This document shows, one piece after another, positions 57,356 through 60,012 of a DNA stretch of 64,000 nucleotides; the first letter of the stretch is position 1, and each line of letters begins with the position of its first letter. Made by a program: the position numbers and the translations under genes. The notes below the pieces were generated by a model. That model worked only from the letters and a program-made list of their open reading frames with translations. It had not been told where the DNA came from and searched no databases. Source of the stretch: Micromonospora sp. WMMA1363 (GTDB lineage Bacteria; Actinomycetota; Actinomycetes; Mycobacteriales; Micromonosporaceae); contig NZ_JAUALB010000001.1 in the NCBI RefSeq assembly GCF_030345795.1, positions 2,165,001 through 2,229,000 of the forward strand. The letters are read 5' to 3'.

Positions 57356-57641
57356 GGCACGAACCGGAACAGACCCGGGCTGCGGCGGGTTGGCCAGAAT
57401 TATGATCGACGTACCGATGTCCGTTCTTGATCTTGCTCCGGTGGCGCGCGACGCCGGCACCGGGGAGGCACTGCGGCACACCACCGAGCTGGCCCGGCGG
57501 GTGGAGGAACTGGGCTACCACCGGTTCTGGGTGGCCGAGCACCACAACATGCCGGCGATCGCGTCGTCGGCGCCGGCGGTACTGCTGGCGCATCTGGCGG
57601 CGCACACCACCACCATCCGGATGGGGATGCTCCTATGGATG

Positions 57642-58712
57642 TCAAGCGGCGAGTTCAAGATCGTTGGCTGTGATGATCTGGTAGAGCTCGCGGGCGATGT
57701 AGCGCTTCAAGCACCGGATGATCTCTTTCTTGGACAGGCCTTCTTTGGTGCGTCGTTCGGTGTAGGCGCGGGTGCGGGGGTCCCAGCGCAGGCGGCAGAG
57801 CACGACGCGGTAGATGGCGGCATTGGCCTGCCGGTCGCCGCCGCGGTTGAGGCGGTGCCGGGTGGTCTTGCCGGACGAGGCGGGGATCGGGGCGACGCCG
57901 CAGAGCATGGCGAACCCGGCCTCGGAGGTGAGCCGGTCGTGGTTCTCGCCGGCGCTGACCAGCAGTTGGCCGGCGGTGTCGGCGCCGAGGCCGTTGGCGG
58001 CCAGTAGGCCGGGGTTGATGGCGGCGACGAGGGGCTGCAGTAGTTCGTCCAGGTCGGCGATCTCGGTGGCGAGCTGCTGGTGGCGGCGAGCGAGGGAGCG
58101 TAGGGCGATCTTGACGGCGGTGGCCGGGGTCGCGGCGTCGGCCCGGTCGGGGCGCAGGTTCGCGCAGGTGGCGATCAGCTGTTTGACGGTCAGGCCGCGC
58201 AGCCGGGCACGCAGCTCGTCGGGGGCGGTGACGATCAGGGACTTGATCTGGCGTTGGGTGTCAGCGCGCTGCTCGACCGCACTGCGCCGGGCCACCCGCA
58301 GGTTACGCAGGGCCTCGACGCGGCCGTCACGCTGCTTGGGGGTGCCGGTGCGTTCTCCGGCCAGGGCCGCCCTGGCGGCTTGGATGGCGTCGATCGGGTC
58401 GGATTTGCCCTGGAACCGGCGGGTCTTGCGGTCCGGGCGGTCGACCTCGATCACGTCGACGTGGTCGTCGCGCAGCACGCGGGCGAGCCCCGCTCCGTAG
58501 GCGCCGGTGCCCTCGACCCCGACCCGGCTCAGCCGGCCGTGTCCGTGCATCCAGGCCAGCAGGGCGGCGTAGCCGGCCCGCGTGGCGGGGAACTGCTGGG
58601 TGCCCAGCACCCGTCCGACCAGGTCGATCACCGCCGCGGTGTGCGTGTCCTGATGGGTGTCGACTCCACCGACGACCTCGATCGCGGCTTCATCGGGTGT
58701 AATGGGAGGCAT
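57642..58712 (-). CDS. IS110-family transposase (DEDD recombinase)
   Basis: 356-residue recombinase. The N-terminal RuvC-like DEDD domain has Asp18 (GGVDTHQDTH), Glu67 (GVEGTGAYG), Asp105 and Asp108 (GKSDPIDAIQAA). The C-terminal Transposase_20 domain has the conserved serine region PASSGKTTRHRLNRGGDRQANAA, whose serine acts as nucleophile in characterised members. All catalytic residues are present and the frame is intact, so it may be active. The ATG at 58712 has AGGA 6 nt upstream; the frame is open to 58754. The gene runs antisense to the interrupted oxidoreductase. Confidence 0.94.
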   Translation of the reverse strand: MPPITPDEAAIEVVGGVDTHQDTHTAAVIDLVGRVLGTQQFPATRAGYAALLAWMHGHGRLSRVGVEGTGAYGAGLARVLRDDHVDVIEVDRPDRKTRRFQGKSDPIDAIQAARAALAGERTGTPKQRDGRVEALRNLRVARRSAVEQRADTQRQIKSLIVTAPDELRARLRGLTVKQLIATCANLRPDRADAATPATAVKIALRSLARRHQQLATEIADLDELLQPLVAAINPGLLAANGLGADTAGQLLVSAGENHDRLTSEAGFAMLCGVAPIPASSGKTTRHRLNRGGDRQANAAIYRVVLCRLRWDPRTRAYTERRTKEGLSKKEIIRCLKRYIARELYQIITANDLELAA

Positions 58713-58759
58713 CGTCGTCCTGTCGTTCGTGACTGGGGGCAGGGCGGCACGCACCAGCC

Positions 58760-58925
58760 GGGCAACGCGGACAAGACAGAGATGGGGCCTCTGGCCAGGC
58801 TCCTATTAGGTCACAACGCCACGTCCAGTGAGTGCACGAGCACCTCCCGACCGAGGCCGACAAATCCCGTTAAGGACCCGAAGTCAGTCAGGTGGTGGGT
58901 CAGACCCCGGGCGGGAGGTGCTCAT
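58760..58925 (-). ncRNA. candidate bridge RNA of the IS110 element
   Basis: Read on the minus strand, 5' to 3': a 12-bp closing stem (58923-58912 with 58849-58838); inside it CCACCTGAC (58895-58887), identical to the left target flank plus one junction base, and a small hairpin GAC-UUCGG-GUC. After the stem comes ATAGGAGC (58806-58799), identical to the right end of the element; then a hairpin GCCU/AGGC; then CATCTCTG (58784-58777), the complement of the left end CAGAGATG. The order target loop, then donor loop, each with left and right guides, is that of known IS110 bridge RNAs. The right target guide is not clear. RNA boundaries are approximate. Confidence 0.7.
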
Positions 58926-60012
58926 GAACATCATCTCTGTCAGGTGGGGTGATGCTGCCCAATCACGCGCCGCTCGTGGTGGCCGAGCAGTTCGGCACCC
59001 TGGAGGCGCTGCACCCGGGCCGGATCGATGTGGGTATCGGGCGGGCGCCCGGCACCGACCAGGTCACCGCGCTGGCGCTGCGGCGGACGGTGGAGGGGTT
59101 GTCGGCTGAGGGCTTCCCCCGGGAACTGGCGGACCTGGTGAACTACTTCACCGGCGAGGACCCGGGGCCGATCACGGCCACCCCGGGCCTGGGCCAACGG
59201 CCGGCGGTCTGGCTGCTGGGGTCCAGCGGGTTCAGCGCGCAGTTGGCCGGGCTGCTCGGCCTGCCGTTCTCGTTCGCGCACCACTTCAGCGCGCAGAACA
59301 CGCTGCCAGCGCTGGCGCTGTACCGGCAGAGCTTCCGGCCGTCGCGGTGGCTGGACCGGCCATACGCGATGGTGGCGGTCAACGCGGGCGTTTCCGATGG
59401 CGGCCCCGATGGCATCTCGGCTGTCGGTTCCGTTGGGTTACGAGTGTGCGCGGAGACCGACGAGCGGGCGGAGTGGCTGGCCGGGCCGGCCGGACTGTCG
59501 TTCCTGAAGCTGCGCTCGGGCCAGCCGGAGCCCCTCGCCACGCCGGCGGAGGCAGCGGCGTACCCGTACACGGACGTGGAGCGGGCGTTCGTCGCGCAGC
59601 GCCGGGAGGGGCAGGCGACGGGCTCGCCGGAGACGGTCCGCCGGCAGCTCGGCGACCTGCTGGCGCGCACCGGCGCGGACGAGCTGATGCTCACCACGCT
59701 GGTGTACGACGTAACCGACCGGGTGCGCTCGTTCGAGCTGATCGCCGAACACGTCGCCGGCGGCCTACGCCGGAGCGTCTGAAACACGATCTTTACGCCG
59801 CCGTCACTCCGGGGACTCGCGGGGCGCATAGCTTTGGTTCCGGTGGTGGTACGGCAACCCCGGTCGGGACGGGTCGGGAGTGCCGCGGTGTGGCGCACCG
59901 GGTCGGAGCTGGCGGATTCCGCGGCCCCGACCCGGTGCCTTCCCCGACACGATCGATCGCCCTCCTTGCCTCCGCCCCGCATTCTTGATCCACTCGCCGG
60001 GTGGCTGCGCAC

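Follow-up and report, generated by a model that had tools for sequence, protein, structure and literature searches.

What is encoded in the 227 bp of non-coding DNA that lie between the left end of an IS110-group element and the ATG of its recombinase gene, and does this DNA decide where the element inserts? The element lies in the window (the whole 64,000-nucleotide stretch of Micromonospora sp. WMMA1363 DNA analysed here), where an earlier note had read its left end as a bridge RNA. That reading is supported by the agreement of 35 different guides with their flanks, by a right donor guide that changes with the element end, by a covarying fold and by a recombinase with DEDD and serine residues; the element is a new actinobacterial member of this group, and its bridge RNA is well supported. 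The mechanism is already known, as a kind of system, since 2024. Three things appear worth following here: the possible one-base core, the range of guides found in nature, and the fit of these guides to gene ends and repeats.

The element, its ends and its recombinase

57627-58939, minus strand: intact IS110-group element, 1313 bp, left end at 58939 and right end at 57627
58939 or 57626: core C, common to element and target
58940-58947, minus strand: left target CCACCTGA, within the interrupted LLM gene
57390-57626, plus strand: 5' part of an LLM-class flavin oxidoreductase gene (provisional start), split by the element
58940-59782: 3' part of the LLM-class flavin oxidoreductase gene
57642-58712, minus strand: recombinase, 356 aa, with its ATG at 58712 (370 aa from an alternative upstream GTG)

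The recombinase has the two domains of an IS110-group protein, a RuvC-like DEDD domain (PF01548, 2e-25) and a Tnp domain with the conserved serine (PF02371, 4.6e-14). Its residues D18, E67, D105, D108 and S280 align with the DEDD and serine residues of IS621 (phmmer, 8wt6), and the closest solved structures by sequence are those of IS621 (8wt6) and ISCro4 (9t56). Past its stop codon, the right end of the element adds 15 bp of non-coding DNA.

The right end could be read directly from empty sites. Twenty loci make up the set of LLM homologues, one of them the window's own; in all 14 that could be parsed the motif IRLGSGGVML is present without an extra codon, and hence uninterrupted. The terminal AT at the right end of the element is missing from these uninterrupted sites and from those of a Phytohabitans repeat, and the right end has therefore been placed at 57627 instead of at 57629 (AGGAGC), as had been proposed; a right flank drawn to the earlier boundary starts with ATC in 56 of 57 cases. 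With AT thus assigned to the element by the empty-site comparisons, what remains is 57627-58939 plus a single common C. A core of CA with the target CCACCTGACATCC had also been considered and was ruled out, the LLM homologues and the Phytohabitans repeat being without such extra bases.

Three copies, identical over their full length, are present in the window's own genome and, to judge by that identity, the element has probably been mobile in the recent past. All three show the layout CCACCTGA, element, C, with CCACCTGA directly preceding the left end and the flanks diverging beyond it. The other two copies lie in different sequence, so that the conserved glycine motif of the LLM gene, proposed earlier as the insertion target, is unsupported as a rule. 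There are 88 further CCACCTGACC words elsewhere in this genome.

Target guides and predicted fold of the RNA

58745-58924, minus strand: predicted bridge RNA region with two stem-loops (single-sequence fold and consensus)
58838-58923, minus strand: target-binding stem-loop, closed by 58923-58912 paired with 58849-58838
58887-58895, minus strand: left target guide, CCACCTGA plus core C, which follows its own left flank (72 sites, 35 guides)
58866-58869, minus strand: right target guide CGGG, its last G facing the core C and the preceding bases facing +1, +2 and +3
58864-58865, minus strand: target-loop handshake guide AU, complementary to the element's terminal AT, with a putative role taken from IS621

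The three short matches on which the bridge RNA had been proposed all lie on the minus strand inside the non-coding left end, at the positions first given for them: CCACCTGAC at 58895-58887, ATAGGAGC at 58806-58799 and CATCTCTG at 58784-58777. They had been thought unlikely to arise by chance. When the left end, minus its first 11 bases, was resampled 20,000 times with a first-order Markov model, the three words were found in this order 0 times; singly they were found in 0.77%, 0.04% and 0.37%, respectively.

Relatives were gathered from a scan of genome contigs (24 loci), from 160 genomes of the genus (30 loci taken) and from 12 fetched regions and, more widely, from 354 genomes of the family including the genus, 31 of them with the donor-loop motif, and 394 genomes of the class, 9 of them with it. 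Six of the 105 motif hits were dropped (one with a short flank, five without a recognisable left end), and the 99 that remained correspond to 74 distinct cases. Two of these, L009 and L035, in which the left flank is a second left-end piece, were set aside, leaving 72 sites with 35 distinct guides. Left guides were read by alignment; a regular expression misread the guides ending in CTGACTGAC.

Each guide was compared with its own flank, as the earlier note had suggested. Mean agreement over guides was 7.34 of 8 positions, vs 4.42 with shuffled pairs, and none of 20,000 shufflings reached the observed value; sliding the left guide by a single base lowered it to 1.5-1.6. By site, all 8 places match in 37 of the 72, at least 7 in 64, and 5 or 6 in the other 8. 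The sister copies keep CCACCTGAC and their flanks also keep CCACCTGA, while relatives with other guides have other, matching flanks; the combination that would have spoken against a guide, the same word beside differing flanks, was not what was found.

One possibility is that the recombinase itself reads a fixed DNA motif such as CTGAC, the words in the RNA being relics or due to chance. In favour of this, recombinases of this kind act on DNA, and 20 of the 35 guides end in TGA before the core. Targets such as CCGCTTAA, TCTGACGA, AGCCACCA and CTGTCTTA, however, each match their own guide, and the covariation contradicts a fixed motif: with the three core-adjacent places left out, guides and flanks still agree at 4.37 of the 5 upstream places, vs 2.34 when shuffled. 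Fixed-motif reading by the protein is accordingly considered extremely improbable, and the words are taken here as guides.

Several of the collected loci have features of their own. In L009 and L035 roughly 20 bases from the start of the left end are duplicated directly before the element, as if it had inserted beside its own end or recombined with it. One common target, with CGGCAGA or TGGCAGA before the element and CGGGATG after it, is occupied by seven elements, each in a different genome of the genus (L047, L048, L049, L050, L052, L055 and L056); both their left guide CCGGCAGA and their right guide ATCCCGAT fit it. The flanks of the copy in G097, a genome of the window's genus, match those of L012 from Micromonospora sonchi. 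In the draft genome G666 each of the four motif copies (L109, L112, L115 and L116) is found some 200 bases or less from where a contig stops; since assembly breaks at the element, copies are undercounted.

The left end also folds. The RNA of the window has a predicted folding energy of -89.4 kcal/mol (z = -4.09, single sequence), and the closed 12-bp stem that had been described before was found as 58923-58912 paired with 58849-58838. Folding with covariance against relatives, likewise proposed at the outset, gave a conserved fold of two stem-loops when the window was combined with 39 relatives picked from 61 distinct sequences (40 sequences in all), with 94.8% of cells paired. Cells changed on both sides number 109 in this consensus, vs 35.8 when shuffled and 14-32 with the partners slid; most of this covariation comes from the target stem, where helices 1 and 2 show changes on both sides among relatives in 12 of 17 pairs, and the donor stems vary hardly at all. 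A search of 58700-58960 against Rfam release 15 gave no family at the gathering score, the best match at a low threshold being a snoRNA at chance level (E 0.3). Guides and fold occupy the long non-coding left end upstream of the recombinase, as in the IS110 group, and not the downstream end, where the IS1111 group has its RNA.

The left and right target guides lie on opposite sides of the target loop, with a short hairpin between them. Because the new right end corrects the register, the right guide can now be read. The earlier note had noticed only GGAU, as the complement of ATCC in the flank. Part of this holds, in that the second G lies opposite the core C, with the first G opposite the first target base; the AU does not belong to it, being complementary to the terminal AT of the element and not to the flank. 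At +1 the target base complements the guide in 50 of 55 sites, and each of the four letters occurs there (target/guide C/G 32, G/C 9, A/T 5, T/A 4); the five misses are A/G twice, T/G twice and A/A once. For 25 distinct right guides the mean agreement comes to 91% at +1, 78% at +2 and 46% at +3, and then falls to 40%, 35% and 25%; over +1 to +3 it amounts to 2.15 of 3, vs 0.94 shuffled (0/20,000). At the LLM site the window's guide pairs with the core and with both +1 and +2, and at the other two sites with the core and +1. The target loop therefore carries a left guide for the bottom strand and a right guide for the top strand, both covarying with the target, as is the case in the IS110 group.

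The same alignments bear on the core. Among the 55 sites with a readable right end, the base that follows the core C at the left end is always A; on the right side it is C in 32, G in 9, A in 8 and T in 6; all 47 sites with a target base other than A nevertheless keep A at the left end, which is not the pattern of a CT core of the IS621 type. From these letters, donor and target appear to have only the C in common and not a CT dinucleotide, possibly a core variant of the known system. In three relatives (L103, L104 and L106) the left guide ends in T and not in the core C (TCACGTGAT), and in two of the three the left end starts with TAGTGAGG, suggesting that the core may have changed to T there; their right ends were looked for and not found.

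Donor guides, handshakes and the proposed mechanism

58799-58806, minus strand: putative left donor guide ATAGGAGC, equal to the right element end 57636-57629
58777-58784, minus strand: right donor guide CATCTCTG, complementary to the left element end 58939-58932
58775-58776, minus strand: donor-loop handshake guide UC, complementary to GA, the last two bases of the left target
57640-57645, minus strand: TTGACA, predicted -35 box of a joined-end promoter
58930-58935, minus strand: GATGAT, predicted -10 box of the same promoter, 17 bases from the -35 box

What marks the left donor guide is an 8-base identity that stops two bases before the core; since it is almost invariant among the relatives, it is this identity that speaks for its pairing. 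The right donor guide, on the other hand, is in keeping with IS621 and shifts with the left end of the element: CAGAGATG is accompanied by CATCTCTG in 24 rows and CAGTGATG by CATCACTG in 10. The 74 rows comprise 34 exact matches, 28 with one or two mismatches, 7 misparsed rows that were left uncounted (L040, L043, L045, L046, L051, L058 and L064) and 5 unparsed.

In IS621, each right guide is described as followed by two bases that pair with the other DNA once strands have been exchanged (PMC11208158). Both such handshake guides have candidates here. That of the target loop, AU, and the AT of the donor are both nearly constant among the relatives, and the same letters occur in the same place in IS621, as A81-U82 with dA6-dT7 (PMC11208158). 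That of the donor loop varies with the target, with full complementarity in 29 of 34 parsed guide groups: target AA goes with UU in 3 of 3 parsed groups (Fisher 0.0007) and GA with UC in 26 of 27. The mismatches in the other five groups are (target/guide) TA/UC, GA/UG, CA/UC, CG/UC and CA/UU, and three sites were unparsed in this table, including L079, which has target AA and a degenerate donor half.

These donor-loop results also bear on the length of the working RNA. For the IS110-group element ISEc21, a 74-nt RNA with the target matches is reported as the commoner form and 58 nt as enough (PMC11187229), and the target stem-loop found here, closed by its 12-bp stem, is of similar size; the working RNA might then be a shorter, seekRNA-like product consisting of this stem-loop only (86 nt, about 58923-58838), in which case the donor half would be dispensable or just part of a precursor. 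Such a product is thought unlikely to be the working form, although distinctly less so than the fixed motif above: the right donor guide and the donor-loop handshake guide change with the element end and the target, and the donor half, from position 116 of the alignment on, contains 28 of the 40 invariant columns, which would be unexpected if it were dispensable.

A two-loop bridge RNA that guides the insertion of an intact IS110-group element is accordingly preferred, and the full mechanism set out below is held with high confidence. The ends of the excised element would join at ATAGGAGCAT-CAGAGATG, creating a promoter of TTGACA, 17 bases and GATGAT from which the left end would be transcribed as the bridge RNA. 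A TTGAC box is present in 49 of 57 right ends (TTGACA in 45), and at the 17-base spacing, which had been set in advance, the joined ends carry GATGAT in 36 cases, GAGGAT in 12 and GATGGT in 1. In the target loop, the left guide would read CCACCTGA and the core C on one strand, and the right guide the core C and about two of the next bases on the other, while the donor loop would read both of the joined element ends. The recombinase would then bring the two DNAs together and swap strands at the single common C, assisted by the two 2-base handshake guides. What the sequences show directly are the agreement and covariation of guides with sites, the fold, and the boundaries given by empty sites. 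For circle formation and transcription of the RNA the model draws on the analogy with IS621 and ISEc21, and for its binding and for the order in which strands are exchanged we infer the course described for IS621.

There are clear relationships to the systems already described. As in IS621, the bridge RNA would lie in the left end upstream of a recombinase with DEDD and serine residues, with the target loop first and the donor loop after it (PMC11208160, PMC11208158), the handshake guides in equal places and a hairpin between the target guides (PMC11208158); a promoter at the joined ends is described for IS621 and the same arrangement is predicted here (PMC11208158, PMC11208160). The element differs from IS621 in its targets, in a left donor guide whose match ends two bases before the core, and in having one common core base, C, instead of CT, followed by A in the donor and by any base in the target. 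With the ISEc21 seekRNA it shares membership of the IS110 group, the location in an upstream non-coding region and a bottom-strand match that precedes the top-strand match (PMC11187229); a circle-junction promoter and natural redirection in a relative have been reported for ISEc21, and both probably have counterparts here (PMC11187229). The target of ISEc21 is described as a place in IS3 transposase genes (PMC11187229), whereas the guides of the present element and its relatives come in 35 forms, and donor and handshake guides can be read here as well. The IS1111 group is alike in its protein family and RNA-guided choice of target, but its long non-coding end is usually downstream of the recombinase gene instead of upstream, and its subterminal inverted repeats are longer (PMC11208160, PMC11187229).

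The 35 guide forms with their targets provide a set of bridge RNAs that have been reprogrammed in nature, from high-GC actinobacteria, in which target, right donor and handshake guides are legible letter by letter. The one-base core, if true, would lift one of the constraints of IS621 as a DNA-insertion tool.

Landing sites at stop codons and in repeats

At least 300 bases of upstream sequence were available for 71 sites. TGA or TAA closes the left target in 50 of them, and in 27 of these 50 (27/71 of all) the triplet closes a coding-like frame in the same direction, "coding-like" meaning an open frame of at least 50 codons with a third-position GC excess, so that real gene calls may shift the counts. 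The 27 sites are spread over 14 of the 35 guides. By guide, the share is 7/9 for CCGCCTGAC, 4/6 for GCGACTGAC, 3/4 for GCTACTGAC and 0/3 for the guide of the window. This stricter rule replaced a looser count of gene ends (70-codon frame, third-position GC 0.75), which gave 30/50 vs 72/693 TGAC words.

Are these guides shaped for gene ends? The 27/50 stands against coding-like stops at 17 of the 232 CTGAC words counted on both strands of the upstream flanks and at 4 of the first 30 by position of the 88 CCACCTGACC words in the window's own genome (p 0.0003 for the latter). Smaller flank controls gave 1/53 for TGACA, 0/11 for CTGACA and 0/4 for CTGACAT. Words from the abandoned CA-core model served as extra samples of stop-like words, with CTGACATC at coding-like stops in 2/30 and TACTGACATC plus CGCCTGACATC in 5/19; its word CCACCTGACATCC has one free site. 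The siting may instead reflect the loss of insertions within genes, or be a by-product of the guide words or the handshake, and this is regarded as having slightly better than an even chance. In genome G203, 14 of the first 30 by position of 196 CCGCCTGACC words are at coding-like stops, from which 27/50 does not differ (p 0.64, a comparison with the overall 27/50 in which the 7/9 copies with a CCGCCTGACC-type guide are not separated); for at least one guide, therefore, the gene-end bias lies largely in the guide word itself. The donor-loop handshake guide, too, reads the GA with which such targets end, so that landing at stop codons may be partly a by-product of the handshake also wanting GA, and none of the three copies with the window's guide is at a coding-like stop. 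The difference from the CTGAC and CCACCTGACC words argues the other way, for guides fitted to gene ends. No publication joining the IS110 family, a bridge RNA and the stop codon was found in the open-access library that was searched. With this pattern one can ask, in a testable way, if guides of mobile elements evolve so as to spare the host.

A second kind of landing site is the Phytohabitans repeat, which, like the REP elements that serve IS621, is abundant in the genome. The words CGGANN{0,4}ATCGCGGYAGC number 176 in the genome with five copies of the element (G319), 133 in G324, 127 in G320, 36 in G321 and 13 in G322; among the matches listed, nearly all read CGGACATCGCGG. One tentative reading, given rather less than an even chance, is that in this actinobacterial lineage, with its single-base core and a freely programmed next target base, guides have repeatedly settled on harmless places, namely the stop codons of genes (14 of 35 guides have one or more copies there) and the REP-like Phytohabitans repeat, which can be present more than 100 times in a genome.

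The five occupied Phytohabitans sites (L005, L006, L016, L018 and L015) have the form CGGA-element-ATCATCGCGG, with one further ATC in L016; some of these copies are oppositely oriented and lie a few hundred bases apart.
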